21,555 nucleotides of DNA from a virus: the IMG/VR virus record IMGVR_UViG_3300042516_003171, positions 1 to 21,555 of that record, one strand, 5' to 3'. The notes under the pieces are model-generated. The model was not told where the DNA came from. It did no database searches and saw only the letters and a program-made list of their open reading frames with translations. Of the stretch, positions 4,026 to 18,650 are shown one piece after another (positions within the stretch are counted from its first letter, which is position 1; each line of letters begins with the position of its first letter). A program made the position numbers and the translations under genes.

Positions 4026-5098
4026 TGGAAAATACAACCTAGTTCACGGTAGCAGGTCATGCGCTTCTTAGCGTGGAACGCTCCGATGGGGTGGAATTTG
4101 TCAGAGAAATCTACGATTGTCGCGCAGTTCTTGGTTTCTGTTTTCCGCAATGCCCGACTCGCTCGCTGGATGGTCTTCTGCGACGACCGACCGCCGCTGA
4201 CCATGATGAGCAGTTCGACGTTGGGCAGATCCAATCCTTCGTCGGCCAATGATGTGGCGATCATGGTTCGCAGGTTACCAGCCTTGAATTCTTCCATGTA
4301 AGCGCGCCGGTCCTTCTTGCCGATCTTGGAATGGACGAGCCGAGAATTCGGAATCTGGTGTTCGTAGTCCTCGCCCAGCGTGATGCGCGGAATGAGGATG
4401 AGGGTCTGCATGTCGAGATGTTCGACCGCGTAGTTGATGGCGTATTTGTTGCGCTCGCGGTTCTGGCAGATGCCGATATCGACAATCGATTCCCAAGCGC
4501 ACATCCGTTTGAGTTCATCCTCCCTGATCCGCATGTACTTGACGCGAGTGTTGAAGAGCCGGTCGATGTTGTCGTCGATCTTCTGCTGGATGTTGAGGTC
4601 CGTGGCGTGGCTGATTTCGAGGTAAGCGTCGGCCAATGAATCGCCAATGTCGCTGCGCTTGATTTCGTAGGTGCGGTTGTGGAAGAGCGTTCGTGTTACC
4701 GTGTTCCGGTCTGGATCGTCGCCCCACGGCGTGGCGTCGAAGCCATAACGCAGTCCGTTACAGGACTCGATGATGCCTTTCAGGACTTTCGCTGCGCTCC
4801 TTTTTGCCTCATCGACGATCAGAAGCTGCTTCTTACTGAAGTCCACAGATTCATGCGGACACCGGATATCCACCTTCTCGTCCGGCACACCAGCCACCCT
4901 TAAGGAAACTCTTCCTTGCTGGCAGGTTTCAATCGTTGGCGCTGTCCATCCGAACGTCCACGTTGGATTCAGCGTGGCGTAATGCTTGATAATGCTCGCG
5001 GCAATCCATGTCTTACCGCTACCGGCAGGGGCGACGATCAGACCATCGCTAGTTTTGGCCCACTCTACTGCTTTTTGTTGGTATTCTCTTAGATTCAT
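4022..5098 (-). CDS. SF2 DEAD/DEAH-type DNA helicase (358 aa)
   Basis: ATP-dependent helicase or translocase of superfamily 2, UvsW/RadD-like in layout. Motif Q-like start LREYQQKAVEW (3-13), Walker A APAGSGKT (23-30), Walker B DEAK (96-99, where DEAD/DEAH is more common), motif III DATP (121-124), motif V ATSLADEGLDLP (281-292) and motif VI QRASRALR (311-318). Both RecA lobes are present, and the length is on the short side for the group. It is coupled to SSB downstream and lies beside the RuvC-like gene, suggesting fork remodelling or branch migration. The start ATG 5096-5098 follows TAAAATT with no Shine-Dalgarno. Confidence 0.9.
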   Translation of the reverse strand: MNLREYQQKAVEWAKTSDGLIVAPAGSGKTWIAASIIKHYATLNPTWTFGWTAPTIETCQQGRVSLRVAGVPDEKVDIRCPHESVDFSKKQLLIVDEAKRSAAKVLKGIIESCNGLRYGFDATPWGDDPDRNTVTRTLFHNRTYEIKRSDIGDSLADAYLEISHATDLNIQQKIDDNIDRLFNTRVKYMRIREDELKRMCAWESIVDIGICQNRERNKYAINYAVEHLDMQTLILIPRITLGEDYEHQIPNSRLVHSKIGKKDRRAYMEEFKAGNLRTMIATSLADEGLDLPNVELLIMVSGGRSSQKTIQRASRALRKTETKNCATIVDFSDKFHPIGAFHAKKRMTCYRELGCIFQ

Positions 5099-5102
5099 AA
5101 TT

Positions 5103-5234
5103 TTAGGAAATTTGCCCCTCCGCCCACTGCTTCATAGCGAGCGAAGGGTTTTGTCCGCACCACACGGTGCGATTCGCTGTCATTCGTTCGTTGTACTGGC
5201 GGTAGAAAGCGCGCTCGATTGCGTCGTGGCGCAC
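5103..5234 (-). CDS. Small ORF overlapping the RHH-like gene, alternative frame (43 aa from GTG; 26 aa from ATG 5183)
   Basis: This frame stops at 5103, just before the helicase start. Its sequence (RHDAIERAFYRQYNERMTANRTVW, given here from residue 2 with later residues omitted) looks more protein-like than the Ser/Thr-rich tail of the overlapping frame. Possible starts are GTG at 5234, or ATG at 5183, which makes an ATGA overlap with the RHH stop. It may be a separate peptide, or the true C-terminal half of the RHH-like protein reached by a frameshift or hidden by a sequence error. Confidence 0.4.
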   Translation of the reverse strand: MRHDAIERAFYRQYNERMTANRTVWCGQNPSLAMKQWAEGQIS

Positions 5235-5371
5235 TTCTTGTTCAGCAACTTCCTTAACGCTTGATTGGCGAAAAATCCGATCTTCAAACCATTCTCGTCG
5301 CAATGTTTGCGAACCTCTTCGTGGAGCGCCGAGTCGATGGTGATAACTGTGTATTTGGCTGGTTTCTTCAT
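5180..5371 (-). CDS. Ribbon-helix-helix-like small regulator (63 aa)
   Basis: The N-terminal 45 residues fit a MetJ/Arc-type ribbon-helix-helix fold: strand KYTVITIDSALH, helix EEVRKHCDENGL, and second helix FFANQALRKLLNKK. Such dimeric proteins usually bind operator DNA. After residue 46 the sequence becomes Thr/Ser/Ala-rich (CATTQSSALSTASTTNE), which does not look conserved and lies where another frame looks better. The start ATG 5369-5371 is 2 nt after the stop of the 170-residue gene; GTG at 5377 would give a GTGA overlap and two more residues. Confidence 0.6.
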   Translation of the reverse strand: MKKPAKYTVITIDSALHEEVRKHCDENGLKIGFFANQALRKLLNKKCATTQSSALSTASTTNE

Positions 5372-5373
5372 AA

Positions 5374-5886
5374 TCACTCGCTCTTCATCGGCGTGGATTG
5401 AACGCCATTATAGGCCACTGTCTTCGGCCTATAGATGCCCACTTGTTCGGTTTCTTCGACCCAGGAGGGGCCGCCGCGGATGTGGAATATGCAGGAGGAC
5501 ATTCCGTTCCATGACTTGGTGGACGACTTGGCGGAGGTATAGGTGGATCCAAACGTAGCGTTCAGATCGTCACTGCTCATCGCCTTGACGTTGGCCCAGT
5601 CGATGTCGCCTGCATGCCACAATTTGAATCCTAGTTCCAGCGGGGCTACTACTTCTGCAATGCCGGGGAAGTGCCAGACCCACTCGTCATGACTGCTGGC
5701 ATCACCTGACATAACCGCGTAGCACTGGTAGTTTCCGAGTGGTACGGAGCCACTGCCCCAGTCGCAGCTCTCGCCGGGCTTGAGGACTGCGCTCCTCGTA
5801 GGATGGTCGTTGCATTTAGGCTGCTCGAAAAGAGCAACAAGAACGGGGACTTCGGTTTGGTTTTCGATCTTGATGTGTGTGCTCAT
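5374..5886 (-). CDS. Hypothetical protein, probably beta-rich (170 aa)
   Basis: No family recognised. The first half alternates hydrophobic and polar residues (HIKIENQTEVPVLVALFE, SAVLKPGESCDWGSGSVPLG), as in a beta-sandwich. The second half is Ser/Trp-rich (SSTKSWNGMSSCIFHIRGG). Four Cys occur without CxxC spacing. The start is fixed by the ATGA overlap with the upstream gene at 5883-5886. It is large for this stretch of the operon and has no visible signal peptide, so a cytoplasmic role is likely. Confidence 0.68.
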   Translation of the reverse strand: MSTHIKIENQTEVPVLVALFEQPKCNDHPTRSAVLKPGESCDWGSGSVPLGNYQCYAVMSGDASSHDEWVWHFPGIAEVVAPLELGFKLWHAGDIDWANVKAMSSDDLNATFGSTYTSAKSSTKSWNGMSSCIFHIRGGPSWVEETEQVGIYRPKTVAYNGVQSTPMKSE

Positions 5887-6080: not shown

Positions 6081-6277
6081 TTTACCTCCTTAGCTTTGCG
6101 CTTCCGATTGGCTGGCTTGTAGAGGTAGATGCCGGTTCGGAAAAGTTTACATAGCAAACTTCCCTGATAGCTAAGCACCCAAGCAGCAGGTGTTGGCTTG
6201 CGGTGGATCATGCCGACAGTTACAGCTCTCTTGGCATTGGCCGCTTGGTAGAGCTGTTCAAGTGTTTTGATTTTCAC
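6077..6277 (-). CDS. Small basic hypothetical protein (66 aa, GTG start)
   Basis: Starts at GTG 6275-6277 in a GTGA overlap and ends in an ATGA overlap. The sequence KTLEQLYQAANAKRAVTVGMIH and the basic tail YKPANRKRKAKEVK are visible. The tail resembles the KAKEVKP/KAKEAKP ends of the neighbouring coiled-coil genes and likewise encodes the Shine-Dalgarno of the next gene. No function assigned. Confidence 0.62.
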   Translation of the reverse strand: MKIKTLEQLYQAANAKRAVTVGMIHRKPTPAAWVLSYQGSLLCKLFRTGIYLYKPANRKRKAKEVK

Positions 6278-6456
6278 GGCTTAACCTCCTGCTCGTTCCA
6301 CAGCAGCAGATCCGCTCGCATCGAGTCGTTCTCCTGCTCCAGTTGTTTCACCCGATCCTCCAGCTTGCGGACATCGAGAGCGATTGCGCGGAGTTGGCGG
6401 CGGTCGTTGTAATCGGCAAAAGCCGGCAGGTCCAAGATTCGTTGTTCTACGCTCAC
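6274..6456 (-). CDS. Small coiled-coil protein of the array (60 aa, GTG start)
   Basis: GTG 6454-6456 overlaps the stop of the upstream paralogue as GTGA. Residues about 18-55 form a predicted coiled coil (LDVRKLEDRVKQLEQENDSMRADLL), and the protein ends NEQEVKP, a variant of the KEAKP tail. It lacks the SDTPRxD and RELNAAN blocks of its neighbours, so it is a divergent or reduced member. Probably self-associates or pairs with neighbouring coiled-coil products. Confidence 0.62.
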   Translation of the reverse strand: MSVEQRILDLPAFADYNDRRQLRAIALDVRKLEDRVKQLEQENDSMRADLLLWNEQEVKP

Positions 6457-6761
6457 GGCTTGGCCTCTTTGGCTGTGGAAATTGGCTGTTTCAACCACAA
6501 CGCTTCCTCCAACTGTTTGATGCGCTCGCCCCTGTCCTCGTACAACGCAACGTCAGCGACTAACACTGCGTACTGGTTCTTCGCGTCCATTAGATCCTCC
6601 TCCAACCGCTTGATGCGGTCGTTTGCTGCGTTGAGTTCGCGTTCAATGGTGCGAGCGAAGTCCTTAACATCATCAACGGTTGTATCATCGTATTCCAAAC
6701 CAGCATCCGTCCTCGGTGTATCGCTGATCATTTTCGTGGCGTCAGGAATATGATCGCTCAT
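6453..6761 (-). CDS. Coiled-coil paralogue A (102 aa)
   Basis: The start ATG 6759-6761 overlaps the upstream stop as ATGA and has a GGGAGG Shine-Dalgarno. The first 17 residues, MSDHIPDATKMISDTPR, are identical to those of the paralogue at 8089-8424, encoded by an exact 51-bp repeat. Then come FARTIERELNAANDRIKRLEEDL and a second heptad segment GERIKQLEEAL, ending TAKEAKP. SDTPRxD..ERELNAAN proteins are, from memory, frequent small phage proteins of unknown role. Oligomerisation through the coiled coil is the only structural prediction I can support. Confidence 0.75.
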   Translation of the reverse strand: MSDHIPDATKMISDTPRTDAGLEYDDTTVDDVKDFARTIERELNAANDRIKRLEEDLMDAKNQYAVLVADVALYEDRGERIKQLEEALWLKQPISTAKEAKP

Positions 6762-6765
6762 TTCG
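6715..6765. repeat. 51-bp exact direct repeat, copy 1
   Basis: These 51 bp, which include the start of paralogue A, are identical to 8378-8428, which include the start of paralogue D. A recombination event between the copies would remove about 1.66 kb and leave one fused gene. Confidence 0.9.
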
Positions 6766-7108
6766 ATTCCTCCCATTTGCCAACCGTCCTCAGAAATGCC
6801 TCTGCGCGTTGACGAGCGGTGGCTTGTAGAATGCGCGTCATCCCGTCCAGTTCCGACATTTGCTCAGCCTCAAGCACTCGCATCAGATTCACCGCAAACT
6901 CAAGCCATGCAGTTGATCCACCAAGTGCAACCATCTCTGCTTGGCGCATCGCGTTGAGGTCTTTGCAGAAACTTGGGACACCAAGTTCAGCCTCGTTTGG
7001 GTGTGATGTTCCACGAGGAAACCATACGCCACACCGAATATCTCCGCAGGCGCACTTCGCCCATCCAAGCTGCAAAGCGATTGCTTCGTTGATTTCTTCG
7101 TCTGTCAC
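6758..7108 (-). CDS. Phage ABA-sandwich-like protein (116 aa, GTG start)
   Basis: GTG 7106-7108 forms a GTGA overlap with the preceding coiled-coil gene. The pattern MTDEEINEAIALQLGWAKC, PSFCKDLNAMRQAEMVALG, then a helical C-terminal half resembles the small 'phage ABA sandwich' family (start ...EIN..IA...GW, then P.[YF]..DLNAM..AE). Its function is unknown. Cys at CACGDIRCGVWF could bind metal. It interrupts the coiled-coil array, so the array is an alternation of families rather than a pure tandem repeat. Confidence 0.68.
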   Translation of the reverse strand: MTDEEINEAIALQLGWAKCACGDIRCGVWFPRGTSHPNEAELGVPSFCKDLNAMRQAEMVALGGSTAWLEFAVNLMRVLEAEQMSELDGMTRILQATARQRAEAFLRTVGKWEESK

Positions 7109-7506
7109 GGCTTGGCCTCCTTGGCTTTGTGCCAGTTGACGGTTTCCAACAGATCGTAGGTCTGGGTATTGGCTAGCTCATCCCCCGCCTCCTCCAACCG
7201 CTTGATGCGCTCGTTTGCTTCGGAAAGCTTTTTACGAAGGTTAGCATCCTGTACTCCAGCTTCTTGCCGAATTTCACTAAGAAGAATTATCTTCTCCGCC
7301 TGTCGGTCAATGAGTTCATCAAGCCGCTTGTTCCATTCATCCCGTTGCTTGATGCGTTCCTTTAACCGCAGGTTTTCTTCATCCAACAATTGCTGCTGCC
7401 GGATGATTGCGTTTGCTGCGTTGAGTTCGCGTTCCAGCCTTCGGCATAGCATACCGAGATCGCCTACGTTGTGAGCGGTTGAGTCGGATATTGGTGTTTC
7501 GCTCAT
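7105..7506 (-). CDS. Coiled-coil paralogue B (133 aa)
   Basis: ATG 7504-7506 overlaps the upstream stop as ATGA, with GAGGAGG about 8 nt before it. Layout: SETPISDS N-terminal block, CRRLERELNAANAIIRQQQ, a long heptad-rich middle (LDEENLRLKERIKQRDEW through LSEIRQEAG), SEANERIKRLEEAGDEL, and tail HKAKEAKP. It is the longest array member, with a nearly continuous coiled coil of about 90 residues. The ERIKRLEEAGDE block recurs in the two genes before it. Confidence 0.75.
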   Translation of the reverse strand: MSETPISDSTAHNVGDLGMLCRRLERELNAANAIIRQQQLLDEENLRLKERIKQRDEWNKRLDELIDRQAEKIILLSEIRQEAGVQDANLRKKLSEANERIKRLEEAGDELANTQTYDLLETVNWHKAKEAKP

Positions 7507-7742
7507 CGGGGAACCTCCTCCACCATCTCGTAGGTGAGTCTGAAGATGTCGGGCTTGCACGGATAGTGCTCACCCTTCACTCCGGTGATGATGTAGTCGC
7601 CGGGTGAAACAATATGACCACCCTCAAGCGTTTGAATCCATCCGTTCAATGAGTCTGGTGAAATGGTTTCTACCATAGGATGATCGCCATGCCTCATCCA
7701 TTGAGTCGCTTCAATGACGACTGGTTTCTTGCGGTACTTCAC
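7503..7742 (-). CDS. Conserved phage protein with GVKGEHYPCKPDIF motif (79 aa, GTG start)
   Basis: GTG 7740-7742 makes a GTGA overlap. The sequence MKYRKKPVVIEATQW at the start and GDYIITGVKGEHYPCKPDIF near the end is a widespread small phage protein signature that I recognise from memory (YRKKPV.IEA.QW ... GD.II.GVKGE.YPCKPDIF). The function is unestablished. The fold should be a small beta-rich domain. It sits between coiled-coil paralogues and ends with a Shine-Dalgarno-containing stretch for the next gene. Confidence 0.75.
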   Translation of the reverse strand: MKYRKKPVVIEATQWMRHGDHPMVETISPDSLNGWIQTLEGGHIVSPGDYIITGVKGEHYPCKPDIFRLTYEMVEEVPR

Positions 7743-8092
7743 GGCTTGACCTCCTTGGCTTTGCGCCATTTCTCAATCTCCATGTGCCACCCCATAAAGG
7801 CGGCAGCAGCGCATAGTACATCCCCCGCCTCCTCCAACCGCCTGATGCGTCTTTCAAGTTCTCCATTTGAATTTAGCAATCGAGCTTCATCTGAACCAAG
7901 TTCGTTGAGTTCCTCCTCCAGCCGCTTGATGCGGTCAGCCAGATTGAGAGCGTGAATATTTAATTTCCTGAACATCTCATTGGCCGCGTTGAGTTCGCGT
8001 TCGAGTTTCAGGCCTTCAGTTAATAGATATGATTCAGTGCAATCTTCCTGTGCCTTACGAAGCGCAAGGTCCATCCTCGGGGTATGACTCAC
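7739..8092 (-). CDS. Coiled-coil paralogue C (117 aa, GTG start)
   Basis: GTG 8090-8092 makes a GTGA overlap with paralogue D. N-terminal SHTPRMDLALRKAQ corresponds to SDTPRxD in the relatives. Then come LKLERELNAANEMFRKLN, LADRIKRLEEELNELG and GELERRIRRLEEAGDVL, ending WRKAKEVKP. Two RIKRLEE-type heptad blocks suggest internal duplication. The last codons carry AAGGAGG, which serves as the ribosome site for the gene at 7503-7742. Confidence 0.75.
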   Translation of the reverse strand: MSHTPRMDLALRKAQEDCTESYLLTEGLKLERELNAANEMFRKLNIHALNLADRIKRLEEELNELGSDEARLLNSNGELERRIRRLEEAGDVLCAAAAFMGWHMEIEKWRKAKEVKP

Positions 8093-8424
8093 GGCTTGGC
8101 CTCCTTGGCTTTGCGCCATCTATTGCTGGAGTAATAATCACTGCAATATTTTTCCATCTCATCCCCCGCCTCCTCCAACCGCTTGATCCGCTCATTGGCA
8201 CTCTCAAGATCCTGATAGGCGTTCACCTTGTCGATGTTTTGGACGGTACAAAGCGCAGATTCCAAGTTCTTGATGCGCTCATTGGCCGCATAGAGTTCGC
8301 GTTCGATGTCACAGCCCACCTGCCATATTTTGGCAAAGCCAGCATCAGGATGGTCTAAGAGTGCAGATTGCATTCTGGGTGTATCGCTGATCATTTTCGT
8401 GGCGTCAGGAATATGATCGCTCAT
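8089..8424 (-). CDS. Coiled-coil paralogue D (111 aa)
   Basis: The ATG 8422-8424 overlaps the stop of a 52-residue gene as ATGA, with AAGGAGG about 4 nt before the start. It shares MSDHIPDATKMISDTPR exactly with paralogue A. It continues CDIERELYAANERIKNLESAL, then SANERIKRLEEAGDEM and WRKAKEAKP. Sharing its start with A and its end with B and C indicates that array members have exchanged segments. Confidence 0.75.
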   Translation of the reverse strand: MSDHIPDATKMISDTPRMQSALLDHPDAGFAKIWQVGCDIERELYAANERIKNLESALCTVQNIDKVNAYQDLESANERIKRLEEAGDEMEKYCSDYYSSNRWRKAKEAKP

Positions 8425-15972: not shown

Positions 15973-16206
15973 TTAGAAAGTGCAGCAGCCGCAGCATGGC
16001 GCGTCTTCGCAGCGGCCGCGTGCATTGCGTGTACCCGTCCAGCCTGAAGATAGTTTGACGCAGACTAGATCGGTGCTTTGCGCGACGCGTCCAGTGCATG
16101 CGTTGCAATCTATGCGCCATGCGCGGCCGCGCTTAGAGACGGTTCCTAGGCCTGCGGGAACGGTTTCGTGACATTGGATGCACTGGCCTGAATATCGGTT
16201 GGTCAT
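15973..16206 (-). CDS. Zinc-ribbon-like protein with Cys-rich CEDAPCCGCC tail (77 aa)
   Basis: Cys9, Cys12, Cys34 and Cys37 (CIQC...CNAC) form a treble-clef or zinc-ribbon-like pair in the N-terminal 40 residues. The C terminus CEDAPCCGCCTF adds five closely spaced cysteines (66, 71, 72, 74, 75), a tail I have seen in other small proteins but whose role I do not know. A second metal site or disulfide knot is possible. Tandem 14-bp repeats lie right before the ATG (16204-16206). Function unknown; nucleic-acid binding would fit the ribbon. Confidence 0.68.
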   Translation of the reverse strand: MTNRYSGQCIQCHETVPAGLGTVSKRGRAWRIDCNACTGRVAQSTDLVCVKLSSGWTGTRNARGRCEDAPCCGCCTF

Positions 16207-16281: not shown

Positions 16282-16971
16282 TCAACCGACAACGAATCCG
16301 CTTGTGTCGGTCTTTGCTTTTCCCTTTGCCGTAAGACCAACGACGACACCCTTAGGATCGAGAAAACGTAGGTCGTTCTCGTCGCCATTAATGACCGGAA
16401 AACCTTGCCAATGCGTCGGGAGTACTTTGCCACGGAAAACAACCGCCACGTTGCCGCCACGTTTGAGAACATCGAGACATTGGGTTTCGTTGGTTTCTGA
16501 ACGGGAAAACGTGAGGGAATAATTGGACGGGAGTTTTCCGTCTAGGAAGGCCACCATACGGGCGAAGCTTTTCGTGTAGTCGTAAAAGCGGGTCGTCTTG
16601 AACGCTTGAATGACCGTATACCGCTCCCATCCAATGTCCGACGTTCCGTTTAAACGGATGACCGGAACCATTTTCTTGGCCTTGGCCTTACGGATGACCG
16701 ACGTGACGTTGTCTTTCAGCGTGGCAAGGAAGGTTTCACGGTCTTTGACGTAAAAAATGGTTTTTGCTGTGCGCGCCTTTTGCACGGAGTTAAACGCGCC
16801 ACGCCCCGCAAAGTAGAGGCAAAGGTTGTCACAAGCGACGGACGCATTGGGACAGACATTAATGAGGCCAGATAGTTTGCCGGGGGCAAGATAGAGAATG
16901 CCGGTCATGAAGCCACGTTTCTGGCCTTTGACGGTCTTTGCGTTGGTATCGATAGATAGGAGGGTTTTCAT
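16282..16971 (-). CDS. Conserved phage protein, gp88/DUF7227-like (229 aa)
   Basis: A conserved phage family of unknown function, recognised from memory by GFMTGILYLAPGKLSG (20-35), the Cys cluster at residues 40, 47 and 51 (C-x6-C-x3-C), MVPVIRLNGTSDIGWE (101-116), RFYDYTKS (128-135), SLTFSRSETN (152-161), DLRFLDP (200-206) and a final VGLTAKGKAKTD..GF. The three cysteines might bind metal or an Fe-S cluster, but this is a guess. The start ATG 16969-16971 is chosen because the upstream 66 residues are His/Pro-rich and cover a separate small ORF. A hairpin follows its stop. Confidence 0.75.
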   Translation of the reverse strand: MKTLLSIDTNAKTVKGQKRGFMTGILYLAPGKLSGLINVCPNASVACDNLCLYFAGRGAFNSVQKARTAKTIFYVKDRETFLATLKDNVTSVIRKAKAKKMVPVIRLNGTSDIGWERYTVIQAFKTTRFYDYTKSFARMVAFLDGKLPSNYSLTFSRSETNETQCLDVLKRGGNVAVVFRGKVLPTHWQGFPVINGDENDLRFLDPKGVVVGLTAKGKAKTDTSGFVVG

Positions 16972-17141: not shown

Positions 17142-17327
17142 TCAACCGACCAACGCTCTTAATTGCCACGATTGAAGGTCAATATTTCCCGCACTTCGCC
17201 AAACCGATCTTGCGCGGGCTTCACATTCCCATTTTTGCATTGGGCCGCATGAGTCGGCTTCGGCGAATATGGCGCGAATCTCATCGGCAATCTCAGCGCT
17301 GACAGCGGTAAGGAGGTTTTCTTTCAT
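17142..17327 (-). CDS. Small hypothetical protein (61 aa)
   Basis: The first leftward gene, facing the divergent region. Helical: LLTAVSAEIADEIRAIFAEAD, then CGPMQKWECEARARSVWRSAG and DLQSWQLRALVG. A purine-rich leader precedes ATG 17325-17327 only weakly. Not recognised. A leftward promoter is expected between 17328 and 17410. Confidence 0.6.
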   Translation of the reverse strand: MKENLLTAVSAEIADEIRAIFAEADSCGPMQKWECEARARSVWRSAGNIDLQSWQLRALVG

Positions 17328-17941: not shown

Positions 17942-18122
17942 AGTGAATATAACACATAATGTGCGACGGTGGGGGACTTATAGTCAGGATAAGTAAATCT
18001 AATGGGACAAAAGGATTGTTTTTCCACAGAATGGCACGATTGTTGACGTAGGACATGGCACCCCCTTTGCGGGGTGGCTTCGTTTACGATACCCCCCTCA
18101 AAAATTTTCCGCCTTTTTGACC
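17942..18122 (+). promoter_or_regulatory. Intergenic region with palindrome and stem-loop
   Basis: Holds CACATAATGTG (17953-17963), a short operator-like palindrome, and a stem CACCCC/GGGGTG (18059-18076, loop CTTTGC) followed by GCTTCGTTT, possibly a weak terminator or attenuator. Just before the next start is AAAAATTTTCC with no Shine-Dalgarno. No convincing -35/-10 pair. Confidence 0.4.
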
Positions 18123-18650
18123 ATGTTAAGTAAAATTAAAATTGGTCAAGTTATTTCTCTCAATCAAGCTGAGAGGAAGTTGGCCCACTTCGTAGCCAAG
18201 AATCGCAACGGCAATAACCGTCATTTCAACACTACGAACTTGAAGATAAGCGCGGATGACCCTGCGACTGTTGATCTTGAGGGCGTGTGCGGCGAGATAG
18301 CCTTCTGTAAGCTATTCAATGTCTATCCCGACATCGACACGGATCGCGAGCCTCCGCACCCGCTCTACGACGCGATTATCCCGCCCATCCCTCCGGGCAT
18401 TCGCATCGATGTGAAGACGACCAAGTACGAGAATGGCAAGCTACTGGTCGATGCGCGCAAAGGCTCGAAGACCGATGGAGTAGATTTCTATGCGCTGATG
18501 ACGGGTCAATTCCCCGGTCCGTATACGTTCAGGGGATTCATCGCGAAGGAGCATATCATCCAGCCGCATAGAATCGGAACGCTGATCAAAGGATACAAAA
18601 CCTACATGGCGGATCAGAGCGAACTGACCGACGAGGTAACTATATTCTAA
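18123..18650 (+). CDS. PD-(D/E)XK-fold nuclease (175 aa)
   Basis: A likely endonuclease. From ATG 18123, the core is Glu58 in GVCGEIAFCKLF, Asp83 in HPLYDAII, and DVKTTK (96-101) giving D96-x-K98 after a hydrophobic strand (GIRID). This is the PD-(D/E)XK order. Flanking parts: an N-terminal helix SLNQAERKLAHFVAKNR and a C-terminal YTFRGFIAKEHIIQP. Phage proteins of this layout act on host DNA or in packaging and recombination; no exact family is recognised. It lies between the terminase-like and capsid genes, where a large terminase would be expected, but it has no Walker motif and cannot be one. Confidence 0.72.
   Translation: MLSKIKIGQVISLNQAERKLAHFVAKNRNGNNRHFNTTNLKISADDPATVDLEGVCGEIAFCKLFNVYPDIDTDREPPHPLYDAIIPPIPPGIRIDVKTTKYENGKLLVDARKGSKTDGVDFYALMTGQFPGPYTFRGFIAKEHIIQPHRIGTLIKGYKTYMADQSELTDEVTIF

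Follow-up and report, generated by a model that had tools for sequence, protein, structure and literature searches.

GP88, a conserved phage protein family, is best described as a divergent sister of DUF5131 near the radical-SAM enzymes

Our analyses of 21,555 nucleotides of viral DNA (IMG/VR record IMGVR_UViG_3300042516_003171, positions 1 to 21,555; hereafter, the window) indicate that the phage protein family GP88 (PF17338), a member of which is encoded there, is best described as a divergent sister of DUF5131 (PF07505; gp37/gp68), a family with a clear radical-SAM fold. Judging from its conserved cysteines, predicted fold, sequence link to DUF5131, and position, GP88 is probably a stand-alone, divergent Fe-S enzyme of the radical-SAM type, perhaps with a function in early host takeover. 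The likeness of the two families has been noted before in an annotation, as one depositor labeled a GP88 protein "Phage protein Gp37/Gp68-like protein". This reading also ties GP88 to the pair formed by DUF5131 and TcmP, which is likewise without a functional account in the titles, abstract openings, and passages of the literature found.

The GP88 gene and its distribution

The protein encoded in the window matches the Pfam GP88 profile with an E value of 3.8e-49 (168 bits; curated cut-off 24.4) over residues 9–227 of 229, a full-length match above the cut-off, and it matches phrog_1617 with an E value of 4e-74. The same reading frame is open further, up to a GTG at 17169 that would give a protein of 295 aa, and the ATG at 16971 agrees by eye with the start positions of the relatives. 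One scan of viral contigs confirmed 191 of 198 candidate stretches as GP88 relatives, and the family occurs in 265 of 50,697 phage records, with mycobacteriophages accounting for 235. In view of these profile matches, confirmed relatives, and phage records, the sequence at 16282–16971 is a real gene rather than a chance open reading frame (ORF). Its main features are summarized in Table 1.

Table 1. Coordinates of the GP88 gene, its conserved elements, and the ORF upstream of it in the window.
Feature	Position	Strand	Remarks
ORF of 61 aa upstream of GP88	17142..17327	minus	First ORF of the leftward block (ORF order)
GP88 (PF17338) coding sequence	16282..16971	minus	229 aa; ATG at 16971; stop at 16282 included
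Codon of C40, first Cys of the triad	16852..16854	minus	Invariant in 68/68 representatives
Codon of C47, second Cys of the triad	16831..16833	minus	Invariant in 68/68 representatives
Codon of C51, third Cys of the triad	16819..16821	minus	Invariant in 68/68 representatives; spacing counts
RLNGTSDI, residues 106–113	16633..16656	minus	End of second strand; hhalign register and secondary structure of both models
FYDYTK, residues 129–134	16570..16587	minus	Third strand; hhalign register
LTFSRSE, residues 153–159	16495..16515	minus	Fourth strand; S156 invariant; strand order
DLRFLDP, residues 200–206	16354..16374	minus	After sixth strand; D200 invariant

An earlier note on this DNA, made from the sequence alone, had described the product as a gp88-like conserved phage protein with no characterised function and with four invariant-looking blocks (viz. 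RLNGTSDI, FYDYTK, LTFSRSE, and DLRFLDP). The family matches bear out this description, all four blocks are found in the 229-aa protein, and our literature and annotation searches on GP88 likewise gave no characterised function in the parts of the sources that were available. Among the matches listed, "hypothetical protein" is the sole label in 58 of 60 GP88 rows. The titles, abstract openings, and passages on GP88 or DUF5131 describe no function, and none is given in the available portions of PMC12429752, PMC5512222, PMC10853773, PMC5368176, and PMC7824862. The gp88 genes in the available portion of PMC11797047 are those of Waterfoul and Hammy, whose membership in this family is not established there. 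A search of the PDB by sequence found no solved GP88 relatives (best E values 0.13 and 0.5, to unrelated proteins).

The 247 GP88 loci that we assembled come from three scans of viral contigs, supplemented by six annotated records and by that of the window itself; a fourth scan of viral contigs yielded no GP88 loci. In one locus, from a Pontibacillus plasmid of 897,839 bases (L086), the GP88 gene is split over two frames (5001–5671, plus strand) and lies downstream of a TnpB-family gene.

Conservation of the cysteine triad

The cysteines at positions 40, 47, and 51 of the window protein form a C-x6-C-x3-C pattern, and all three are present in each of 68 representatives under 80% identity (drawn from the 247 loci minus 5 with short coverage, plus the window). 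Invariant in the same 68 sequences are L52, G56, R106, D112, Y132, S156, D200, K216, G217, G225, and F226, and an alignment of 94 sequences (A1) has an identical invariant set; K134 is replaced by Ala in 6 of the 68. In a wider set of 69 GP88 sequences under 60% identity, the three cysteines are found in 67, the two exceptions being a row cut short by our script (L140) and the second half of the split gene in L086. The spacing among these 67 is C-x6-C-x3-C in 49, C-x7-C-x3-C in 17, and C-x16-C-x3-C in one. The spacing that is classical for radical-SAM enzymes, C-x3-C-x2-C, to which exceptions are known, occurs in 0 of 67, and we know of no description of C-x6/7-C-x3-C as a cluster motif in the literature.

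Predicted fold of GP88

An AlphaFold2 model of the window protein built on alignment A1 (pLDDT 93.1, pTM 0.90) has strands at residues 21–26, 102–106, 128–133, 151–156, 175–179, 191–195, and 210–214, and the cysteine triad follows strand 1 and precedes the first long helices. The model has the strand order and the putative cluster loop expected for a partial (beta/alpha)6 barrel, with VIA-align Z scores of only 4.9–6.4. In a VIA-align run over 997 of the top 1000 Foldseek chains, the first 22 rows are all radical-SAM entries (Z 6.4–4.9; about ten distinct proteins), including QueE (Z 6.4), pyruvate formate-lyase (PFL) activase (6.3), EpeE, viperin, and TYW1, as well as spore photoproduct lyase (Z 5.8 over 164 residues, rmsd 4.7), and the best fold of another kind has a Z of 4.5; a Z of 6.4 is middling by the yardstick of this method and common for models without a clear match. 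It is the consistency of these predicted matches, not the height of Z, that is the point. The location of RLNGTSDI in the model is presumably that of the GGE motif in radical-SAM barrels.

Foldseek of the model against the PDB found no match at E ≤0.001, and the window protein matches neither PF04055 nor any NCBIfam radical-SAM model; PF04055 was matched by 1 of the 94 GP88 members of A1, with an E value of 0.012 that is about what chance would give.

Relationship of GP88 to DUF5131

When the Pfam GP88 profile was searched in 614 genomes (296 + 29 + 289) at E ≤0.001, it found 5 strong places and 25 weak ones (20–31 bits), and all 25 of the weak matches are DUF5131 proteins (24 by Pfam and one, L330, by eye). 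In the reverse direction, the DUF5131 profile was used to fetch 23 proteins, of which 13 are matched by the GP88 profile at E ≤1, the best at 2e-7. The DUF5131 alignment A2 holds 23 of the 26 loci L277–L302; L296 (a near-duplicate), L297 (a piece lacking the start), and L300 (a fragment) were excluded, and the ORFs were picked by a three-Cys pattern with x2 or x3 between the last two cysteines. A first comparison of the GP88 and DUF5131 profiles with hhalign gave a probability of 14% and an E value of 0.0019 over 49 columns, and wider alignments (69 GP88 and 50 DUF5131 sequences) gave 64% and 6.3e-5 over 181 columns. The latter scored 39.2; the reversed control scored 16.0, none of 60 column shuffles exceeded 25.5, and none of 16 other families exceeded 20.4. 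In this alignment the cysteine triads of the two families are in register, RLNGTSDI aligns with FVNSMSDLF of DUF5131, and FYDYTK aligns with LTKR; the counterpart of LTFSRSE, by strand order, is VSVE.

Other searches did not connect the families. PF07505 has no match to the window protein at E ≤10 and is absent from the matches of the 94 relatives (among the 25 of 28 families that were listed), and HMMs built from our own GP88 sets found DUF5131 at E values of 0.24 and 1.2, not above background ORFs, so that the link rests on the Pfam profile and the profile-profile result.

DUF5131 itself is, by prediction, a family with a radical-SAM fold. Both of the two members that were compared match TIGR04471, "radical SAM mobile pair protein A" (E values 4.9e-28 and 3.1e-25), at scores far under its curated cut-off (98 and 89 of 355 bits). 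The model of a viral DUF5131 protein (68 sequences; pLDDT 95.1) has as its top structural match spore photoproduct lyase (Z 14.2 over 196 residues, rmsd 2.9), followed by viperin, RlmN, and lipoyl synthase. A remoter DUF5131 relative, L280, matches TIGR04471 at 4.1e-6 and carries the canonical C-x3-C-x2-C; its gene (L280 1294–2034, minus strand) lies about 5.7 kb from a GP88 gene on a single contig of an archaeal assembly.

The earlier note had suggested a metal or Fe-S site from the spacing of the cysteines, to be examined by conservation mapping and by structure prediction with fold comparison. The invariance of Cys40, Cys47, and Cys51, their register with the triad of DUF5131, and the predicted radical-SAM-like fold, middling as its scores are, all support such a site, and we found neither a loss of the cysteines nor a match to a known non-enzymatic fold.

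Genomic context

In the window, GP88 is the second ORF of a leftward block (by ORF order). From 17327 leftwards the main predicted genes are on the minus strand, encoding proteins of DNA metabolism (viz. an AAA protein, SSB, a helicase, ThyX, and DUF3799) along with many small ORFs, and from about 17411 rightwards the larger ORFs taken as genes are on the plus strand. The 61-aa ORF that opens the block has no family match above cut-off in Pfam or PHROGs, and a scan for promoters and terminators gave a number of sites not above that in shuffled sequences. In all 53 mycobacteriophage rows listed (out of 235 such records), GP88 is encoded on the minus strand, no more than 2.5 kb from the right end. 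In LHTSCC it is the second annotated gene counted from that end; the early leftward promoter of phage L5 lies there. In the pelagiphage Himinglaeva, GP88 has the DNA maturase B gene on one side and the MarR-type, integrase, and RNA polymerase genes on the other. In the lineages examined, GP88 is placed near the start of apparent early gene blocks.

GP88 is also found within larger proteins. Of 78 GP88 ORFs in the new loci, one lies inside a long, lysine-rich protein of 1319 aa (L379 3765–7724, plus strand), in which the GP88 domain occupies residues 373–638; by eye, the downstream ORFs are head-gene-like and the upstream surroundings ribonucleotide reductase-like. A fusion partner could not serve as a functional clue, since Pfam finds no other domain in this protein at E 1. 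GP88-like folds also turn up in three BFVD entries, 995, 1172, and 1211 aa long, at E values of 5.1e-12 or lower. That phages inject multidomain proteins is known from PMC5512222, according to the passages available from this study of polyvalent proteins, in which GP88 does not occur. The position of GP88 near early-block starts, together with its occurrence in the large L379 protein beside probable head genes, suggests an early or virion-borne role.

No constant partner of GP88 was found among its neighbours. Across the 36 GP88 clusters, the ORFs immediately downstream are short and vary from one cluster to the next, so a conserved downstream partner was discarded, and clustering of the neighbours by blastp gave no family in more than 9 of the 36. 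The Pfam and PHROGs families of the neighbours are mostly terminase and integrase, with ArdC-type and other genes as single cases (in the first 25 listed, out of 52 and 120 families, respectively). In 26 of 40 viral contigs with DUF5131, a TcmP gene (TIGR04474) is present no more than 423 bases away, the two genes forming a unit (loci L411–L464). TcmP was found in 0 of 40 GP88 contigs and was rejected as a partner of GP88, and a search of these same 40 for DUF5131 was likewise negative. The two sets of contigs were drawn from 80 DUF5131 loci and 318 GP88 viral-contig loci by a choice that favoured long or diverse contigs, some of which are fragments.

Several other observations were made in the window. 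Directly downstream of GP88 is a Cys-rich ORF of 77 aa (15973–16206, minus strand), whose C-terminus, RGRCEDAPCCGCCTF, lies within a match to phrog_2656 (E 7.8e-9) and phrog_5664 (3.4e-8); tblastn at 1e-5 gave no match to this ORF in phage records. The region 6274–8424 (minus strand) holds a series of small genes whose products look like coiled coils by eye. These genes have repeated segments in common (a 48-nt and a 42-nt segment in six copies each, plus two 71-nt segments at 89%) and look as if tandemly duplicated. The protein encoded at 18117–18650 (plus strand) matches PF19161 (DUF5843) with an E value of 9.7e-10.

Proposed role and alternative explanations

In the mechanism that we propose, GP88 would be a small protein built on a reduced radical-SAM partial barrel, in which the three invariant cysteines of the loop after strand 1 would most likely hold a [4Fe-4S] cluster with one iron site open. 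S-adenosylmethionine (SAM) would bind this open site, and the conserved strand ends (viz. R106–D112, Y130–K134, S156, G196–D200, and K216–G217) would form the walls of the pocket that receives SAM and the substrate. Transfer of one electron would split SAM, and the resulting 5'-deoxyadenosyl radical would take a hydrogen atom from the substrate. GP88 may act as infection begins, and its target might be nucleic acid, as is that of spore photoproduct lyase.

Because the triad is not spaced in the classical way, it could be a site for zinc, or for a cluster that does no SAM chemistry. GP88 could accordingly have kept a fold derived from radical-SAM enzymes, with the cluster or zinc retained for structure or nucleic-acid binding and the SAM chemistry lost, an explanation to which the reduced barrel, the weak fold scores, and the lack of a radical-SAM match for the window protein in Pfam or NCBIfam also lend some weight. 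We nonetheless regard it as unlikely, since the invariance of R106, D112, Y132, S156, D200, and K216 goes beyond the needs of a structural metal site and the motifs at the strand ends align with those of DUF5131. A more distant explanation, that GP88 has no kinship with radical-SAM enzymes, being instead a TIM-barrel that binds zinc or an enzyme of another kind, and that it resembles them by convergence, would fit the empty Foldseek search and the middling Z scores; it appears improbable given that radical-SAM entries alone fill the top VIA-align rows, that every weak match of the GP88 profile was specifically a DUF5131 protein, and that the profile comparison with DUF5131 exceeds its controls.

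The genomic neighbours raise a further possibility, viz. that GP88 belongs to a DNA-modification pathway together with a C5-cytosine methyltransferase. The neighbour family present in the most GP88 clusters is, by eye, a C5 methyltransferase (in 9 of 36 clusters and 32 of 276 loci); it usually lies downstream of GP88 on the same strand, and AP013541 has an annotated Dcm gene next to GP88. However, PF00145 occurs in 9 of 40 GP88 contigs and 7 of 40 DUF5131 contigs, which is no clear enrichment, and a DNA methyltransferase partner was rejected; we consider membership in such a pathway highly improbable.

The explanation of GP88 as a radical-SAM-type sister of DUF5131 makes a falsifiable prediction, namely that GP88 is an oxygen-sensitive [4Fe-4S] protein that cleaves SAM, and with 235 mycobacteriophage carriers and an easily handled host, a phage gene of unknown function becomes open to biochemical testing. 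A wider proposal would make GP88 a radical-SAM enzyme, widespread, early, and in some cases carried in the virion, that uses a C-x6/7-C-x3-C cluster motif and, within the first minutes of infection, chemically alters nucleic acid of the host or the phage (or some other early target). This proposal is in our estimation doubtful; if true, it would represent a new phage chemistry of host takeover or counter-defence.

Comparison with known systems

The window protein is a member of PF17338/phrog_1617, and no difference from this family was seen. GP88 resembles DUF5131 in the register of the triad, the strand order, and the NxxSD and TK motifs, and differs from it in the gap between the second and third cysteines, which is x3 in 67 of 67 GP88 sequences and x2 in 50 of 50 DUF5131 sequences (49 of them C-x6-C-x2-C). 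Spore photoproduct lyase is a radical-SAM DNA repair enzyme that repairs the spore photoproduct; its solved chains have 338–340 residues, compared to 229 in the window protein, and its cysteines follow the classical C-x3-C-x2-C, whereas those of the window protein follow C-x6-C-x3-C.
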